Shown here piece by piece: positions 5,442 to 15,133 of a stretch of DNA of 64,000 bases. The notes beneath the pieces were generated by a model. That model was not told the origin of the DNA. It searched no databases and saw only the letters and a program-made list of their open reading frames with translations. The position numbers were made by a program, and so were the translations under genes. The DNA comes from Halosimplex rubrum (lineage in GTDB: Archaea; Halobacteriota; Halobacteria; Halobacteriales; Haloarculaceae): positions 2,356,001 through 2,420,000 of the forward strand of contig NZ_CP058910.1 of the NCBI RefSeq assembly GCF_013415885.1, read 5' to 3'. Position 1 is the first letter of the stretch, and each line of letters starts with the position of its first letter.

Positions 5442-7620
5442 GACGGCCGAGCAGCGCCAGCGCCGCGAGGAGTCCGGCGAGTCCCGTTACCGGGCCGAAG
5501 CCGGGACCGAACCCGGAGGTTCCGCCGTCGTCCCCGTTCCCGCCTCCGCCGCCGTCGCCGTCGCCCACGTCGCCGACGGTCACGACCAGCGGGTCGGCGC
5601 TCCCGAGCGTGAACTCGTACTCGCCGCGGTCGAGGCGGGCGACGCCGCTCAGGCTCCGGTTCTCGCCGGCGCCGAGCGCGACCCGGCGGTCGATGATCGG
5701 GCCGTCGGGGCCGCGGAGGGAGACGTTCCCGCGCGCCGGCACGCCGTGCGTGTTGGAGACCGTCGCGGTGAACGCCACCGCGCCCGGCCCGGACAACTCC
5801 GTCCGGTTGGCCGTGAGGTGGGTCACGGTCGCCCGAGGGGGTTCGTACACCTCGACGGTCACGCGGTCGCCGCCGACGGCGAGGGTGTAGTCGCCGGCCT
5901 CGTCGAACGTCCGCTCGAACCGGTAGGTCACTCGCTCGCCGGGAGCGACGGTCCCGCTCTCGGACGCTTCGACCGCGCCGTCGACGACGAACCGCGCCTC
6001 GTACCCGCCGGCCGAGCCCCCGGCGTTGGTCACCGCCCCGGTCATCGTCAGCGTCTCGCCGGTGTAGAGGGTCAACTCCGACCCCGAGCGGGTCACGTTG
6101 CGGTAGGGGCCGCTCACCGCGAGGGCGCCCGGTTCGGTCGCGACCGCGACCTCGACGAGCGCGGGCGTCGACGCGAACGCCTCGGCGTGGGTGCGGGCCG
6201 ACCACAGATCCGGCGTCCGCTCGGTGCCCGCGTAGGTGACCGCGGCCCGGCGGACCTCCGGCCCGGCGACCGTCCCCACGGACTCGAAGACGGCACGCGC
6301 GTCGACGGGACCCGAGTGGGCGTTCATCGCCGAGAAGACCGTCTGGAGCGAGCGCGTCCCGTCGGTCGCCAGCCGGATCCGCAGGTCGGTGTCGCCGGCG
6401 ACGAGGCTCCCCTTCAGGTAGTTGGCGGCGTTGACCCACGAGCGCGGTTCGGTCATGACCGCGTCGGACTGCGGGCGGACGGTCCCCGGTCGCAGCGCCT
6501 CGCGGAACGCCGCGAAGTCGACGCGGCCCTGTTCGAGCGCGAGCAGGGCGGCGTAGTAGGTGGCGAAGGCCTCGTTCGTCCACTTCGCGGAGGACGCCGC
6601 CTCGTAGCCCTGGCGGGTGTGGACGTACTCGTGGAGCCAGGTGTTCTCGGCTGTCGAAAGCGGCTCGGCGTCGCGGACCCACATGTCGCGGTCGCCGTAC
6701 TGCAGGCCGCGCACGCCCCACCGGACGGTCGTCGTCGGCGCGGCGAAGACGTTCACCACGGGGTCGCGGTCGCCGACGCGCATGCGGTCGCCGGCCGCCG
6801 CGAGCGAGTCGAGGACGGCGTCGGGCGACTCGGTCAGCGACGCCCGCTCGGGGATCACCAGTTCGAACCGCTGACCGTGGGCCGTTCGCTCGCGCGTCGC
6901 GACCTCGCCGAGGTAGGCCATCCACTCGCCGACGTACCCCTCGCCCGCGGTCCGCGTCTCGCGCGTGATGCCGACCGGCGCCGCGCCGCTCCAGGACCAG
7001 CTCGTCGGCACCGACGGGTGGCGGACGAGCGCCCACTCGCCGGCGTCGACGAAGAGATACCGCCCCTGGGCCCCCTCCGGCCCCGAGAGGTCGACCGTCT
7101 CGTTGACCGCCATCGCGAACGTGATCGACGGGCTCGACGCGTTGCCGTCCCACTCGTAGGCGGTCCCGTTGGCGCGCGAGAAGCCCGTCGTCGCGGTGAC
7201 GGTCACGTTCTCGGGCAGTTGGGGCTTCAGCGAGGACACCCGGTCGGGTACTCGGTACCGCTGGACGACGGTGATCTCACCGGGCTCGTCCGGCGTCAGC
7301 CGCAGCTCCTGGACCGCCGTGACGTTCGCCGGCGCGCTCGCGAACACCGCGTCCGTGCCCGCGGCCGACGCCGACCCGCCCGACGCGGTGACGGACTTCG
7401 TCACCCGCTCGGCGGGCTCGCCGGAAGCGCCACGTTCCCCGGAGAGAGCGGTATCGGCGGCGAATTGTCGTGGTTCGGACGCGGTCGCGTTCCCGGTCGA
7501 GTCGGCGACCGTCTCCGCGGTCGGGGAGGCGGCCGCGAGGCCGCCCCCGGCGACCGCGCTCGTGAGAAGCAACACCGCGACCGTCGCGGCGACGACTCGA
7601 CGACCGCCAGCCCGTGACAT
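5431..7620 (-). CDS. secreted gluzincin-like metalloprotease with PGF-CTERM anchor
   Basis: A 729-residue surface protein. It has an N-terminal hydrophobic signal (about residues 8-30). A gluzincin zinc site is visible: HEYVH (His330, Glu331, His334) with the third ligand in NEAFATYY (Glu350), as in M1/M61-type peptidases. After about residue 500 come two beta-rich CARDB-like segments (EVAVATEPGALAVSG; PPRATVTHLTANRTEL). The tail is a Gly/Asp linker, then GFGPGFGPVTGLAG, a hydrophobic helix and RRRG, which is a PGF-CTERM sorting signal processed by archaeosortase A. It is thus predicted to be lipid-anchored at the cell surface. Peptidase substrate unknown. Confidence 0.85.
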   Translation of the reverse strand: MSRAGGRRVVAATVAVLLLTSAVAGGGLAAASPTAETVADSTGNATASEPRQFAADTALSGERGASGEPAERVTKSVTASGGSASAAGTDAVFASAPANVTAVQELRLTPDEPGEITVVQRYRVPDRVSSLKPQLPENVTVTATTGFSRANGTAYEWDGNASSPSITFAMAVNETVDLSGPEGAQGRYLFVDAGEWALVRHPSVPTSWSWSGAAPVGITRETRTAGEGYVGEWMAYLGEVATRERTAHGQRFELVIPERASLTESPDAVLDSLAAAGDRMRVGDRDPVVNVFAAPTTTVRWGVRGLQYGDRDMWVRDAEPLSTAENTWLHEYVHTRQGYEAASSAKWTNEAFATYYAALLALEQGRVDFAAFREALRPGTVRPQSDAVMTEPRSWVNAANYLKGSLVAGDTDLRIRLATDGTRSLQTVFSAMNAHSGPVDARAVFESVGTVAGPEVRRAAVTYAGTERTPDLWSARTHAEAFASTPALVEVAVATEPGALAVSGPYRNVTRSGSELTLYTGETLTMTGAVTNAGGSAGGYEARFVVDGAVEASESGTVAPGERVTYRFERTFDEAGDYTLAVGGDRVTVEVYEPPRATVTHLTANRTELSGPGAVAFTATVSNTHGVPARGNVSLRGPDGPIIDRRVALGAGENRSLSGVARLDRGEYEFTLGSADPLVVTVGDVGDGDGGGGGNGDDGGTSGFGPGFGPVTGLAGLLAALALLGRRRG

Positions 7621-8563: not shown

Positions 8564-10567
8564 TCAGTCGTCGCCGTGGACCTGGTCGCGGATATCCTCG
8601 GGGACGGAGGGGTCGCGCAGCGTGGTGGTGTTCCCGAGTTCGTCGCCGTTGGAGATGTTCTCCAGCAGGCGGCGCATGATCTTGCCCGAGCGGGTCTTCG
8701 GGAGGTCCTCGACGAAGACGACGCGGTCGGGGCGGGCGAACTTACCGATCTCGTCCTCGACCGCCTCGATGATGCGGTCGCGGACCTCCTCGTTGCTGGC
8801 GGAGACGCCCTCGCGGACGACGACGTACACGTCGGGCACCTCGCCCTTCTCGTCGTGGTCGCGGGCGGCGACCGCGGCCTCGGCCACGTCCTGAACCTCG
8901 GAGACCGCGGATTCGAGTTCCATCGTCCCGAGGCGGTGCCCGGCGACGTTCATCACGTCGTCGAGGCGGCCCAGCACGCGGAAGTAGCCGTCGTCCTCGT
9001 GGACGGCGCCGTCGCCGGCCTTGTACACCCAGTCCTCGGGGTCGTCGCTGTCGGTGTCGGAGAAGTCCTGCCAGTACTCCTCGATGAACCGCTCGTCGTT
9101 GCCGTAGACGGTCTGGAGCATCCCCGGCCAGGGCTTCTCGATGACGAGGTTCCCCGCCTTGCCGGTGGCGGGTTCCATGGGTTCGCCGCCGTCGTCGTAC
9201 AGAGCCGGCTGGATCCCCGGCGCCGGCAGACCGGCCGACCCGGGCTTCATGTCCTTGAGCGCGGGGAGGTTCGTGATGAGGTGGCCGCCGGTCTCGGTCT
9301 GCCACCACGTGTCGACGATGACGGCGTCCTCGTCGCCGATGTGCTTGTAGTACCACAGCCACGCCTCGGGCTGGATTGGTTCCCCGACGGTGGTCATGTG
9401 GCGGAAGTCGAAGTCGTACTCGTCGACGTGCTCGGCGCCCCACTTCATGAACATGCGGACGGCGGTCGGGGAGGTGTGGAAGATGTCCACGTCGTAGCGC
9501 TCGGCGATCTCCCAGATGCGGCCCTTGTGTGGGTGGTCGGGCGTGTCCTCGTACATCACCGACGTGGTCCCGAGCGCGAGCGGGCCGTAGACGATGTAGG
9601 AGTGGCCGGTGATCCACCCGATGTCGGCGGCACACCAGTAGGTGTCCTCGGGCTCGATGTCGAGGACGTACTTGCTGGTGGCGGTGACGTAGGACATGTA
9701 GCCGCCGGTGCGGTGCTGGCAGCCCTTGGGCTGGCCGGTCGTCCCGGAGGTGTACATGAGGAACAGGGGGTCCTCGGCGTCGCGGGAGACGGGGTCGACG
9801 CGGGCGCGCTCGTTGTCGGCCAGCAGGTCGTCCGCGAGGACGTAGGGGTCGTCGCCGTCGATCTCGACGTCCTCGTGGAGTTCGTCGTGGCGGGTCCAGA
9901 GGACGACGCTGTCCACGTCGGACTCGGCGAGTTCGAGCGCCTCGTCGCATTTTTCCTTGTGGTTGAGGAACTCGCCGCGGCGGTAGTAGCCGTCGCAGGT
10001 GACGACCACGTCGGAGTCGGCGTCGTCGATGCGGTCGGCCAGCGCCTGGGCGGAGAAGCCGGCGAACACCTCCGAGTGGGGCGCGCCGATGCGGGCGCAG
10101 GCCAGCATCGTGACCGGCAGCGCCGGCAGCATCGGGAGGTGACAGGTGACGACATCGTCCTCCTCGACGCCCACGTCGCGCAGCGACGCGGCGGCCGCGT
10201 TGACGCGGTTGTACAGGTCCTGGTAGGTGATCGTCTCGCGTTCCTCGCTGTCGGTGCCTTCCCAGATGAACGCCGCCTGATTCTTGCGCTCGTCGAGGTG
10301 GCGGTCGATGCAGTTGTACGAGGCGTTGAGTTGGCCGCCGGAGAACCACTCGTAGAACGGTGGGTTCGAGTCGTCGAGCACCTCGTCCCAGTGTTCGTCC
10401 CAGTCGAGGAGTTCGGCGTACTCCTCGAAGGCCTCGGGGTAGTTCTCGTCGAAGCGGTCGTAGATGTCGGGGTCGCTGACGTTGGCCTGGCCGACGAACT
10501 CCGTCGGCGGCCGGAAGTACTCCTGTTCGGTCAGCCGCGATTCGAGGGGGGAACCCTCCTCGGACAT
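8564..10567 (-). CDS. acs: acetyl-CoA synthetase (AMP-forming)
   Basis: A 667-residue member of the ANL superfamily that activates acetate to acetyl-AMP and then acetyl-CoA. The canonical motifs are intact: the phosphate-binding loop YTSGTTGQPKGCQH, DTWWQTETGG, the hinge GRLDDVMNVAGHRLGT and the catalytic-lysine motif KTRSGKIMRRLL near the C-terminus. The length matches acetyl-CoA synthetases. The gene lies downstream of a Bat-type regulator on the same strand but has its own promoter and a roughly 60-base leader containing a palindrome, which suggests separate regulation. Confidence 0.95.
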   Translation of the reverse strand: MSEEGSPLESRLTEQEYFRPPTEFVGQANVSDPDIYDRFDENYPEAFEEYAELLDWDEHWDEVLDDSNPPFYEWFSGGQLNASYNCIDRHLDERKNQAAFIWEGTDSEERETITYQDLYNRVNAAAASLRDVGVEEDDVVTCHLPMLPALPVTMLACARIGAPHSEVFAGFSAQALADRIDDADSDVVVTCDGYYRRGEFLNHKEKCDEALELAESDVDSVVLWTRHDELHEDVEIDGDDPYVLADDLLADNERARVDPVSRDAEDPLFLMYTSGTTGQPKGCQHRTGGYMSYVTATSKYVLDIEPEDTYWCAADIGWITGHSYIVYGPLALGTTSVMYEDTPDHPHKGRIWEIAERYDVDIFHTSPTAVRMFMKWGAEHVDEYDFDFRHMTTVGEPIQPEAWLWYYKHIGDEDAVIVDTWWQTETGGHLITNLPALKDMKPGSAGLPAPGIQPALYDDGGEPMEPATGKAGNLVIEKPWPGMLQTVYGNDERFIEEYWQDFSDTDSDDPEDWVYKAGDGAVHEDDGYFRVLGRLDDVMNVAGHRLGTMELESAVSEVQDVAEAAVAARDHDEKGEVPDVYVVVREGVSASNEEVRDRIIEAVEDEIGKFARPDRVVFVEDLPKTRSGKIMRRLLENISNGDELGNTTTLRDPSVPEDIRDQVHGDD

Positions 10568-10608
10568 GGTTATCGACCCCTCCGTGTGACCCGTCGCGAC
10601 CGGTGGCA

Positions 10609-10621
10609 GTCACGCTGTGAC
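10609..10621. promoter_or_regulatory. palindrome in the acs leader, possible operator
   Basis: GTCAC-GCT-GTGAC is an inverted repeat with 5-base arms, lying between the acs TATA-like box and the acs ATG, close to the expected transcription start. The Bat-family regulator encoded next door is an obvious candidate binder, but this is inference. Confidence 0.4.
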
Positions 10622-10650
10622 ATGGTTCACTTTCGATATCACCCAGGAGA

Positions 10651-10661
10651 CTCTTAAGCCA
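10651..10661 (-). promoter_or_regulatory. TATA-like box for acs
   Basis: The minus strand reads TGGCTTAAGAG, predicting transcription from about 10630 and therefore a leader of about 60 bases, unlike the mostly leaderless genes nearby. Confidence 0.4.
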
Positions 10662-10755
10662 ACCGTCTAACTGTCTATGACGACCCGTGACACGGGGCCA
10701 GCGGACCGCCCGACGGGTCGGTGACGTTCGCGGCCCGTGTCGTCCGGCCGACCTG

Positions 10756-13053
10756 TCACTCGTCGTCGAAGAAGGCGGTGAGCAGTTTCTGCTGGGCCTT
10801 CCGGAGGTGGTTGTGGAGCGTCGGCGAGGAGACGCCGATGGAGTCGGCGAGTTCCTCGGCGGTCGACCCGCGGGGCCACTCGAAATAGCCCGCCAGATAC
10901 GCGGCCCGCAGGACCGACTGCTGTTTGTCGGTCAGGTCGTCCTCCAGCGAGCGGCGGAAGCCGTCGGTCGTCTGGACGGGCCGCTCGACCTCGTGTTTCG
11001 AGAACAGCGTCGACTCGGAGAAGGCCGACTGGAAGCCGTTGAAGACGGTCCGAACGTCCGTCTCGGTGGTGAACTCGGCGGTGACGCGCTGGGCGCCGTC
11101 CTCGACAGTGAACTCGGTGACGTGACCGCCCAGTTCCGTCAGCGTCGTCGCGGGCTCCTCGCCGGCGACGACGAACTCGACGAGGTAGCGCTCGCCGTAG
11201 TCGCGGATCAGCCGGGCGTTCTCGATGCCGTCGGCGTCGGCCGCGAAGTCGACGACCGCCTCGGGAGAGGCGCCACGCATCGTCACGAAGTACAGCAGGC
11301 TCCCGCCCTCGCCGGGGACGAGCCCCTGGAGCTCGAACGCCGCGTCGAGGGCCCGGCTGGCCCCGACGAAGAAGGCGCGGTCGCTCTCGACGCGGAACTC
11401 CAGCTCGGTGACGCTGTCGGCCAGCAGGAGGTTCCGCCGCTTGATGTCGGTGATCGCCTGGCCGACCTGCCAGCCGACGCTGCCCAGCAGCTCGCGCTCG
11501 TCGCTCCCGAAGGCGTCCTCGTCGGTCGCGCCCAGCGCGAGCAGCCCGTGGGTCGTGTCGCCGTAGGTGATCGGGACGACGGCGACGGCGTCGACGCTCG
11601 GCCCGTCGCCGTCCGTCTCGATCGGGCGAAGCGGCGCCTCGCGTTCGCCGGTCGGGAGCGTGCGGACTTCGCCCGGCTGGTCGGCGGCGACGCCGTGGAC
11701 GTCCACGTCGTCGGTCGCGGTCTCGGCCAGCGTCTCCGCGGTCGCCTCGTCGATCCCGGTCCAGGCCGTCGAGACGACGCCCCGGTCGCCGGTCGCCGAG
11801 CCGACCCACGCGAACTCGTAGCTGTCGGTCGCGGCCAGCCGGTCGCAGACCCGCGAGGCGACCTCCGTCCGCTTCGAGGCCGCCGCGAGCACCGCCGCGA
11901 CCGCTCCGAGCGCCCCGATCGTGTCCGCCACGCGGGCGGGGACCGACCCACCGGCCGGTGTCGTCCCGGTCCCGTCGGCGCCCGCGGGAGCGGACCCGTC
12001 CGCACCGTCGTCCACGGCGAGGTCGCCGCGCCCGTTCGAACCCGCCGACGCGTTCGGACCGTCGGAGGTCGGGCGCCGGCCGTTCGCGTCCGCGCGTTCG
12101 GCCGGTTCACCGACGCGCTCGGCGCTCGCCTCGCGCTCGACGAAGACGGCGATGCGGCGGCCTCGCCGCGCCGAGTCGCCGTTCAGCGGCGCCGCGACCC
12201 GGACGACCGGTACCGGGTCGCCGTCCGGACCGGCCAACCGAACTCGCGTCGGACCGCTCGACCCCGCCGGGGGGTGAGCGTCGCCGTGATAGAGCGCGGT
12301 GGCGGGGCCGCCGACCAGGTCGTCGCCCGACCGCTCGGTCAGCGCCGCGAGGCCGTCGTTGGCGAACGCGACGGCGCCGTCGGCGTCGGTGACGACGACG
12401 GGGAGGTCGGCGCTCGCGAGCGCGCGTCCGAGGTCCGCCGGCGCCCACTCGGCGGTCGGGCCACCCAGCCCCGCCCGTTCGAACGCGTCCAGGACGGTCT
12501 CGATCCCGACCGGGTCGAGGTGCCGGCAGAGCGCGTCCAGCCCGTCCCAGGGACCGATCGCGAGGACGACCCGCGGGTCGAGGCCCGCCTCGTGGACGAG
12601 CCGGCGGGCGTAGTACCCCCGGAGGTCGGTCGAGGAGACGGTCCGCAGCCGGTCGTCGCCGCTCCGCTCGGCCGCCCGCTCGCCGACCTCCCCGACGACC
12701 ATCTGGATCCGCCGCGGCGTCACGGCGACGACCCGCTCGTCGCCGCCGATCCCCCGCTCGTTCACGTACCGCTCGACGGCCGAGCGCACGTCCGCCGGGA
12801 CGTAGGCGTCCCTGACGGCGTCGCCCTCGTCGTCCACGACCGTCAGGAGGTGGTGGGTCCCCGCGCGCGTCGACACCGCCCGGAAGTCGTCGGGGCGGAC
12901 CCGCGCCACTTCCGTCGGGCTGAGGCCGACCTCGCCGCAGAGACGGACCACGACCGACTCCCGGTAGGTCGTCGCCGCCCGCCGCAGCCGCTCGTAGGCC
13001 GCGGTCGGCAGCGGTTCGGCGGCGGCGTCGGTTTCCCTGGCACGCTGTCCCAT
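10756..13053 (-). CDS. Bat-family HTH regulator with recombinase-like N-domain, PAS and GAF
   Basis: A 765-residue multidomain regulator. The C-terminus is the bacterioopsin-activator (Bat) module: a Bat-associated beta-rich domain at about 545-695, then an HTH_10 helix-turn-helix (LTDKQQSVLRAAYLAGYFEW through SSPTLHNHLRKAQQKLL). Before it are a PAS-like domain (about 225-325) and a GAF domain (about 395-540). Residues about 15-205 resemble a tyrosine-recombinase catalytic fold (LCGEVGLSPTEVARVRPDDF; STDLRGYYARRLVHEAG) but lack most catalytic residues. Sitting between two acetyl-CoA synthetase genes, it likely controls acetate metabolism in response to a small-molecule or redox signal; that role is inferred. 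Confidence 0.88.
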   Translation of the reverse strand: MGQRARETDAAAEPLPTAAYERLRRAATTYRESVVVRLCGEVGLSPTEVARVRPDDFRAVSTRAGTHHLLTVVDDEGDAVRDAYVPADVRSAVERYVNERGIGGDERVVAVTPRRIQMVVGEVGERAAERSGDDRLRTVSSTDLRGYYARRLVHEAGLDPRVVLAIGPWDGLDALCRHLDPVGIETVLDAFERAGLGGPTAEWAPADLGRALASADLPVVVTDADGAVAFANDGLAALTERSGDDLVGGPATALYHGDAHPPAGSSGPTRVRLAGPDGDPVPVVRVAAPLNGDSARRGRRIAVFVEREASAERVGEPAERADANGRRPTSDGPNASAGSNGRGDLAVDDGADGSAPAGADGTGTTPAGGSVPARVADTIGALGAVAAVLAAASKRTEVASRVCDRLAATDSYEFAWVGSATGDRGVVSTAWTGIDEATAETLAETATDDVDVHGVAADQPGEVRTLPTGEREAPLRPIETDGDGPSVDAVAVVPITYGDTTHGLLALGATDEDAFGSDERELLGSVGWQVGQAITDIKRRNLLLADSVTELEFRVESDRAFFVGASRALDAAFELQGLVPGEGGSLLYFVTMRGASPEAVVDFAADADGIENARLIRDYGERYLVEFVVAGEEPATTLTELGGHVTEFTVEDGAQRVTAEFTTETDVRTVFNGFQSAFSESTLFSKHEVERPVQTTDGFRRSLEDDLTDKQQSVLRAAYLAGYFEWPRGSTAEELADSIGVSSPTLHNHLRKAQQKLLTAFFDDE

Positions 13054-13216: not shown

Positions 13217-15133
13217 TCACTCGCGGTCGAGCGCGGAGCGGATCTCGCCGACGATCTCGGGGTTGCGGAGCGCGCTGGTGTCGCCGAGTTCGTCGTCGTC
13301 GGCGATGTCCTTGAGCAGGCGGCGCATCAGCTTGCCCGAGCGGGTCTTCGGGAGTTCGGGGGTAAACACGAACGTCTCGGGGACTGCGAAGGCCCCGATC
13401 GAGCGCTCGACGTTGTCGGTGATGCGCTCGCGCAGGTCCCGTTCGGCCTCGTGGCTGTCGTCGGTGCTGACGAACGCGAAGATGGAGCTGTCGCTGCCGT
13501 CGCGCACGTCGACGATTGCCGCCTCGGCGACGCCGGGCACGTCGGCGATGGCGCGTTCGAGTTCGGTCGTCCCGAGGCGGTGGTTGCCGACGGTGACGGT
13601 GTCGTCGATGCGGCCGAGGACGGTGACGTAGCCGTCGTCGTCGATGCGAGCGATGTCCTCGGTGGCGTAGCGCCACTCGTCGGCCCGGTCGTCGCCGTCC
13701 AGGCTCAGGGGCATGCCGGGCCAGGGCTTCGTGACGGCGAGGCGTCCGCCCTCCGCCGCCGTCGTCTCCTCGCCGTTCGGGCCGACCACCGCCACGTCGA
13801 TGCCCGGCAGCGGCGGTCCGGTCGAACCCGGCTTCATCCGGTCGACCCCGGGAAGCGTCGACAGCAGGATGGCCCCGGTCTCGGTCTGCCACCACGTGTC
13901 GACGATGGGGCACTCCCCGCCGCCGACGTGTTCGTAGTACCACCACCAGGCGCTGGGGTTGAGCGGTTCGCCGACCGACCCGAGCAGGCGCAGGCTCGAC
14001 AGGTCGTGCGAGTCGGGGTGCTCGGCGCCCCACTTCATGAACGCGCGGATGGCCGTCGGCGCCGTGTAGAACACGTCGACGGCGTTGCGCTCGATGAGCT
14101 CCCACACGCGGTCCTTCTCGGGGTGGTCGGGCGTCCCCTCGTAGAGCATCGTCGTCGTCCCCAGCGAGAGGGGGCCGTACACGAGATAGGTGTGGCCGGT
14201 GATCCACCCGATGTCGGCCGAACACCAGTAGGTGTCCGCGGGTTCGAGGTCGAGCACGGCGTGGCTCGTCCACGTCGCGTGGGCGAGATAGCCGCCCGTC
14301 GTGTGGCGCACCTCCGTCGGCTCGCCGGTCGTCCCCGAGGTGTAGATGAGAAAGAGCGGGTCGTTGGCGGCCCGGGGGACGGGCTCGACCTCGGCGCCGC
14401 GGTGGGCGGCCAGCAGGTCGTCGTAGGCGCGGTCCGCCTCGCCCAGCTGGACGCTCTCGTCGTCCAGTCGCTCGACGACGACGGTCTCGGTCACCTCGTG
14501 GGGGACCGACAGGCAGGCGTTGTCGGCCTTGTTCTTCTGGTGGATGGCGTTGCCCCGCCGGTAGTAGCCGTCGCAGGTGACCAGATACTCGGAGTCGGCC
14601 CGCTCCATGCGCTCGGCCAGCGCCGCCGCGGAGAAGCCGGCGAACACGACGTTGTGCGGCGCGCCGATGCGGGCGCAGGCCAGCATCGCGATCGGCAACT
14701 CGGGGATCGCCGGCATGTACAGCGTCACCACGTCGCCCTCGCCGATACCCAGCGACCGGAGGGCGGCGGCGAACTCGTTGACCTCGTGATAGAGGTCGAG
14801 GTAGGTGTAGGTCCGTCGCTCGCCGCGCTTGCCGATCCACTTGATCGCCGCCTGGGTCTTGCGGTCGTCGAGGTGGCGGTCGACGCAGTCGACCGAGGCG
14901 TTCAGCTCCCCGCCCGGGAACCACCGGCGGTCGCCGCCCGCCGCCTCGAACGTCGTCTCCGGCGGCTCGCTCCAGTCGAGCATCTCGCCGGCCCGCGCCC
15001 AGCAGTCGGGCCATTCGCCCTCCAACGCCGCCGCGTCCGCCGCCGAGACGTTGGCCTGCTCGGCGAACGCCGCCGACGGGTCGACCCCGTCCCGGTCGCG
15101 CGGGTTGGTCTCGACGACCGACTCGTCGTCCAT
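13217..15133 (-). CDS. second acetyl-CoA synthetase-like protein with altered phosphate loop
   Basis: A 638-residue ANL-superfamily enzyme close to the acs product in layout, including DTWWQTETGA, GRIDDTVTVGNHRLGT and the catalytic-lysine motif KTRSGKLMRRLL. The phosphate-binding loop is unusual: it reads YTSGTTGEPTEVRH, replacing the conserved Lys-Gly of the P-K-G signature with Thr-Glu. It may be a catalytically modified acyl-CoA synthetase, may use another short-chain acid, or may have reduced activity. The ATG at 15133 is preferred to the in-frame start at 15442 because a TATA-like box lies at leaderless distance and the upstream extension is Arg-rich. Confidence 0.85.
   Translation of the reverse strand: MDDESVVETNPRDRDGVDPSAAFAEQANVSAADAAALEGEWPDCWARAGEMLDWSEPPETTFEAAGGDRRWFPGGELNASVDCVDRHLDDRKTQAAIKWIGKRGERRTYTYLDLYHEVNEFAAALRSLGIGEGDVVTLYMPAIPELPIAMLACARIGAPHNVVFAGFSAAALAERMERADSEYLVTCDGYYRRGNAIHQKNKADNACLSVPHEVTETVVVERLDDESVQLGEADRAYDDLLAAHRGAEVEPVPRAANDPLFLIYTSGTTGEPTEVRHTTGGYLAHATWTSHAVLDLEPADTYWCSADIGWITGHTYLVYGPLSLGTTTMLYEGTPDHPEKDRVWELIERNAVDVFYTAPTAIRAFMKWGAEHPDSHDLSSLRLLGSVGEPLNPSAWWWYYEHVGGGECPIVDTWWQTETGAILLSTLPGVDRMKPGSTGPPLPGIDVAVVGPNGEETTAAEGGRLAVTKPWPGMPLSLDGDDRADEWRYATEDIARIDDDGYVTVLGRIDDTVTVGNHRLGTTELERAIADVPGVAEAAIVDVRDGSDSSIFAFVSTDDSHEAERDLRERITDNVERSIGAFAVPETFVFTPELPKTRSGKLMRRLLKDIADDDELGDTSALRNPEIVGEIRSALDRE

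Follow-up and report, generated by a model that had tools for sequence, protein, structure and literature searches.

The locus and its acetate-gene neighbourhood

The window, the whole 64,000-nucleotide stretch of Halosimplex rubrum DNA that was analyzed, carries a gene, here called Int-BAT, which ORF analysis found at the predicted coordinates, 10756-13053, but on the minus strand, with its ATG at 13053 (Table 1). At the C terminus, both BAT (PF15915) and HTH_10 (PF04967) exceed their curated Pfam cut-offs, which identifies a Bat-type regulator. GAF_2 also exceeds its cut-off, and the PAS match (residues 210-260) is weak and falls below it, the topology of the full-length structure model being compatible with PAS. 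This model is of moderate confidence (pLDDT 79, pTM 0.46), and the packing of its domains was left uninterpreted. Of the domains predicted to follow the N-terminal region, GAF and HTH_10 were recovered and PAS stayed at the level of a weak match, while BAT was found in addition to those named. A Pfam scan of the whole 765-aa protein matched nothing within the N-terminal 200 residues.

Table 1. Coordinates of genes, domains, residues and repeats at the Int-BAT locus
Feature	Position in window	Strand	Evidence
Int-BAT regulator gene, 765 aa	10756..13053	-	ORF and Pfam scan
Tyrosine-recombinase-like domain, residues 16-195	12469..13008	-	AF2, Foldseek against PDB, fused-only profile against PDB, PF00589 in homologues
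PAS-like domain, residues ~206-310	12124..12438	-	Weak Pfam PAS/PAS_9, strand/helix order of full-length model
GAF domain, residues 396-534	11452..11868	-	Pfam GAF_2, E=1e-9
BAT domain, residues 546-701	10951..11418	-	Pfam BAT, E=2.4e-43
HTH_10 DNA-binding domain, residues 707-758	10780..10935	-	Pfam HTH_10, E=5.2e-21
Upstream acetyl-CoA synthetase gene (acsB here)	13217..15133	-	Co-directional upstream neighbour in 77/81 fused loci
Downstream acetyl-CoA synthetase gene (acsA here)	8564..10567	-	Co-directional downstream neighbour in 77/81 fused loci
S45, replacing catalytic Arg-I	12919..12921	-	Alignment
T142, replacing box-II His	12628..12630	-	Alignment
R145, Arg-II, kept (86/86 fused proteins)	12619..12621	-	Alignment
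W169, box-III Trp, kept (83/86 fused)	12547..12549	-	Alignment
H178, replacing nucleophilic Tyr (W+9)	12520..12522	-	Alignment
Proximal operator-like repeat TTTCG-N16-CGAAA	13062..13087	-	Between TATA-like TTTTATTTCG and ATG
Distal operator-like repeat TTTCG-N16-CGAAA	13169..13194	-	Just past upstream acs stop, 107 bp from proximal copy

How widespread the fusion is had been left open by the prediction. It occurs in ten family-level groups of our Halobacteriales sample and is tied to acetate-activation genes, the order acs, Int-BAT, acs on one strand throughout being found in 75 of 81 loci, a figure that describes a sample picked mainly as best search matches. DUF4212 and SSF symporter genes follow the fused locus in 63-64 of the 81 and a universal stress protein (USP) gene in 59, and the rest of the window's neighbourhood had no further gene conserved beside the fused gene across the sampled loci. 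The downstream symporter genes are absent from the window and Halosimplex pelagicum loci; a symporter query returned one distant match only (25% identity) in the window genome, which seems to have no close copy of the acetate symporter. In 20 genomes with no or a weak match to the N-terminal domain, BAT homologues are missing from the 1.5 kb on either side of the best acsA homologue.

Plasmid records of Haloferax, Halocatena and Haladaptatus carry between two acs genes a gene annotated 'bacterio-opsin activator domain-containing protein', and in Haloferax lucentense Int-BAT is located between the matching acs genes. From the gene numbering, which puts HVO_A0157 between acs8 (HVO_A0158) and acs7 (HVO_A0156), and from the H. 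lucentense record it follows that HVO_A0157 and HFX_5130 are putative Int-BAT genes. The acs7-HVO_A0155-ssf-uspA28 unit of H. volcanii gives a Northern blot signal on acetate and none on glucose or casamino acids, and ssf is a characterised acetate transporter (PMC7746861). In H. mediterranei, acetate raises the expression of HFX_5129 and HFX_5131, the acs pair of the corresponding cluster, by 3.5- and 3.1-fold (PMC11784441).

On the downstream side, a consensus TTxGCATARTTAG begins about 56 bp ahead of the acsA start in most loci (regulator-acsA gaps of L032-L111), with a log-likelihood of 10.8 per sequence against 4.9 for shuffled sequences, and this element may be the true activation site. 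In the window, acsA seems to differ from most of its relatives in having a long leader (10568-10755) that includes an additional ATG upstream, and a related ACAGTTAG lies at ~10640-10680, farther upstream of acsA than the usual position of the element.

The N-terminal domain has a tyrosine-recombinase fold

Taken alone, the window sequence gave little: NCBIfam XerA_Arch matched residues 8-162 weakly and below threshold (E=0.016), PF00589 (Phage_integrase) had no match, a PDB search with the domain as a single sequence returned chance matches only, and a single-protein scan of genome contigs returned only Halosimplex pelagicum, the nearest named relative found (92% identity across the domain). 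Family alignments were therefore used. Homologues of residues 1-195 were found in 146 of 195 Halobacteriales genomes, either fused to regulators or as free-standing proteins of ~200 aa, the latter, which share 32-40% identity with the window domain (hhalign E 3.7e-57), being its closest relatives among those found. Among 54 aligned homologous domains, 51 matched PF00589 individually and 52 matched a phage integrase PHROG.

A profile built from fused proteins only, with the catalytic relatives excluded, matched XerA in the PDB (4a8e, 5.5e-18; 5hxy, 1.3e-10), and the profile matches of the domain comprised XerA, IntI, XerD and Cre. AF2 returned the recombinase catalytic fold with a mean pLDDT of 93.8. 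The top 50 Foldseek matches listed from the PDB were all tyrosine recombinases, among them Cre with its variants, XerA and Tn1549 Int (these three at E 3e-7 to 2e-4), XerH, IntI4 and a Staphylococcus aureus integrase; TM-scores were moderate (0.56-0.67 by query), as is to be expected for a single domain compared with two-domain enzymes. In the AF2 model, the N-terminal core-binding domain of usual recombinases is absent. No DUF3504 match appeared in Pfam scans of the window protein and its homologues. The profile search and the structure prediction could each have overturned the predicted recombinase-like order of the N-terminal region, and both bore it out, confirming that residues ~16-195 are a tyrosine-recombinase catalytic domain by fold and homology.

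Strand-cleaving residues tend to be lost and phosphate-contacting residues to be kept

The free-standing relatives have the full R-K-H-R-W-Y set in 19 of 19 Halobacteriales proteins, with the motifs GLR, hairpin GGKPR, SSHDLRR, GGW and EPYL and the Tyr nine residues after the Trp. The boxes of the window protein match these relatives column by column, and the alignment agreed with the prediction that the box-I Arg, the box-II His and the final Tyr had been lost and that the second-box Arg had been kept. The hairpin Lys is a further loss beyond the residues predicted, so that four catalytic residues (Arg-I, Lys, His and Tyr) are gone and Arg-II and Trp remain, in the window protein as in that of H. 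pelagicum. Across the 86 fused proteins, Lys is present in none, His in 5, Tyr in 54, Arg-I in 78, Trp in 83 and Arg-II in all. Neither the window protein nor the fused family has the catalytic set R-K-H-R-H/W-Y, and the contrast with 19 intact free-standing proteins sustains the idea of an integrase converted away from catalysis. Phosphate-holding residues tend to stay and chemistry residues tend to go; when fused proteins alone are aligned, 10 columns are invariant, and five of these are Arg (R31, R81, R114, R115 and R145).

Arg-I, Arg-II, Trp and Tyr are found together in 44 of the 86 fused proteins, and five more, of the R-H-R-W-Y type such as L046 and L063, have His too. Together with a sister group of catalytic-domain-only ~200-aa recombinases and a promoter flanked by two inverted-repeat sites, this could mean that some fused proteins remain active as recombinases and invert or relocate DNA at the acs locus, as a FimB/FimE-like genetic switch. 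We consider this very improbable: the hairpin Lys is missing throughout and His in 81 of 86, gene order and orientation are constant over the ten family-level groups, and the window protein is without Arg-I, Lys, His and Tyr. Conversely, a uniformly dead site does not account well for the persistence of Tyr in 54 of 86 fused proteins.

Two deviations were observed within the fused set. Box-III GGW is replaced by TAY in a small Halocatena-type lineage (L084, L095 and L153), the sole clear departures from Trp among fused proteins. One Int-BAT copy beside acs (L112 of G151, 7001-7495) has an open frame of only 216 aa that ends short of the Tyr region, so that it may be broken or frameshifted.

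Evolutionary history and selection

In a tree of 104 domains, a single branch parts the free-standing from the fused proteins (SH-aLRT 97, quick method), and a single fusion event would be the simplest reading of this unrooted tree, which is no proof of it. The His-keeping fused proteins are placed nearest the free-standing side, where the deep branches are weak, and few lineages are as degenerate as that of the window protein. By parsimony on this tree, the minimum number of changes is 2 for His, 6 for Arg-I, 10 for Tyr and 1 for Trp. The free-standing catalytic-domain-only proteins with a complete catalytic set (L113-L131; NC_001869.1) are common on Halobacterium and Haloarcula plasmids; they are FimB/FimE-like in size, and some overlap an annotated hypothetical protein.

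Between the window protein and that of H. pelagicum, dN/dS is 0.27 for the Int-like domain, 0.30 for PAS, 0.30 for GAF, 0.14 for BAT and 0.74 for the linker. The value of 0.27 indicates purifying selection and rules out pseudogene decay of the Int-like domain. A fixed host locus, lost catalytic residues and purifying selection, the criteria of domestication, are all found here.

A paired inverted repeat ahead of the regulator gene

TTTCG-N15/16-CGAAA recurs in the gaps that separate the regulator gene from the acs gene upstream of it (acsB-bat gaps): 55 of 79 contain the exact repeat, and 73 of 79 do so once the pattern is relaxed. Many loci have two copies. These raw counts are no independent test, the repeat having been discovered by inspecting the same regions. 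In the window there are two copies, against 0.02 expected by shuffling. Better evidence comes from flanking-DNA and gap-length controls and from the records of other genera. Copies with a spacer of 15 or 16 number 58 in the acsB-bat gaps versus 5 in the 1.08 Mb of remaining locus DNA, and other spacer lengths are rare in gaps and flanking DNA alike; the Haloferax lucentense, Halocatena and Haladaptatus records likewise show paired repeats. The sequence CGAAAC reaches a density of 9.5/kb in the acsB-bat gap versus 1.05 and 0.69/kb in two neighbouring regions.

The exact repeat occurs four times in the 4.48-Mb genome, two of these being the candidate operators, and the strict motif therefore points to autoregulation. 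The other two copies, of which one falls within an ORF and the other close to a nucleoside-phosphorylase-like gene, were taken as chance, and a wider regulon defined by the exact motif was not found. Helical phasing of the two operators was set aside, as spacings of 97 or 107 bp hold in close groups but others occur. Neither of the acs promoter regions contains the exact repeat, and control of the acs genes would therefore need read-through or another element, for which TTxGCATARTTAG ahead of acsA is a candidate.

The repeat could instead be bound by another factor, or be a core-promoter feature, with no relation to the Int-BAT protein. The proximal copy overlaps the TATA-like box, and CGAAA-like sequences resemble haloarchaeal BRE elements. 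A search beside the free-standing integrase genes found no repeat, and the exact pattern occurs elsewhere at a low and variable 1-12 copies per genome across the family. On the other hand, a fixed gap of 15/16, an inverted layout and a second copy ~100 bp upstream by the acs stop are not features of a core promoter, and the local excess of CGAAAC also counts against this explanation. We regard this explanation as unlikely.

The centres of the half-sites are separated by 21-22 bp. This exceeds the usual span of one HTH dimer and is near the half-site distance of recombinase sites; it suits two recombinase-like protomers (lox-type) but also two DNA turns for an HTH protein. The Int-like domain may instead be purely structural, mediate protein-protein contacts (dimer or tetramer) or sense a ligand, with all DNA contact made via HTH_10. 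HTH_10 is near-invariant and has a dN of 0 when the window protein is compared with that of H. pelagicum, the Int-like domain is without the core-binding half of a usual recombinase, and some lineages lost Arg-I yet kept the gene, all of which would fit such a role. The five Arg, Arg-II included, among the ten invariant residues of the domain and the distance between half-sites argue otherwise, and we hold HTH_10-only contact to be a real possibility, if somewhat doubtful.

Proposed role of the Int-BAT protein

The interpretation we favour is that an integrase domain was joined to GAF, BAT and HTH_10 domains and lost its ability to cut DNA, that the product probably acts as an acetate regulator, and that its Int-like domain is likely to serve in DNA binding or pairing. 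The ancestor would have been a tyrosine recombinase made up of the catalytic domain alone, such as haloarchaeal plasmids carry to this day, fused ahead of a GAF/BAT/HTH_10 regulator. The fused domain would then have lost strand-cleaving chemistry while keeping the fold and part of the phosphate-contacting surface. In the present-day protein, PAS and GAF would read a signal and modulate the regulator, which would bind its own promoter through the paired TTTCG-N15/16-CGAAA repeats for autocontrol and adjust the surrounding acs genes (in most species, acs, DUF4212, acetate symporter and USP). The recombinase-derived domain would assist HTH_10 in gripping the operators, as a second module that binds or pairs DNA without cutting it. 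Points against this reading are that the exact repeat is absent from the acs promoter regions and from beside the free-standing integrase genes, that Tyr persists in 54 of 86 fused proteins, and that the window and H. pelagicum loci are without the downstream symporter genes.

A bolder version, which we put forward as speculative and rather improbable, is that the Int-like domain still recognizes a recombination-site-like operator and pairs both copies around the promoter in a non-cutting 'synapse' loop. If true, a mobile-element integrase would have become the DNA-looping half of a haloarchaeal acetate switch.

Int-BAT is nominated here as a regulator of haloarchaeal acetate utilisation, for which the papers found on acetate genes name none, and the transition from recombinase to regulator becomes testable in genetically tractable Haloferax. 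Counts of archaeal integrases based on PF00589 include proteins that are probably unable to cut DNA.

Comparison with known systems

The fusion itself is already published as fam30-04, which the 2021 review by Badel et al. (PMC8371274) describes as larger proteins with Phage_integrase, BAT and HTH_10 domains, some with GAF_2. The window protein has the same domain set, a match made by composition and not by clustering with listed members at 30% identity over 60% of the protein. The portion of the review that treats fam30-04 lists it among recombinase families and is silent on catalytic residues, neighbours, operator and function (PMC8371274). For the catalytic-loss pattern, the acetate-gene linkage and the operator, no report was found in the literature searched, which is weak evidence, subscription papers being scarcely covered.

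Bat, the bacterio-opsin activator of Halobacterium, and other GAF-BAT-HTH_10 regulators have the same domains in the same order, but Int-BAT has a recombinase-derived N-terminal domain and acetate genes in place of bop. The free-standing 'site-specific integrases' of haloarchaeal plasmids differ in having the catalytic set intact, no regulator domains and no acs genes beside them. Archaeal XerA has the catalytic-domain fold and profile similarity in common with Int-BAT but is an active two-domain recombinase. The nearest conceptual precedent is the well-described domestication of Cryptons in animal transcription regulators, where the DUF3504 genes (KCTD1, ZMYM2-4 and QRICH1) contain a recombinase that lost most catalytic residues (PMC3212892). 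Those genes are eukaryotic, of independent origin and without Arg-II, whereas Arg-II is invariant in Int-BAT, which offers an archaeal case of domestication where catalytic relatives still exist, the loss of catalytic residues can be followed by degrees, the metabolic locus is fixed and there is a candidate operator.
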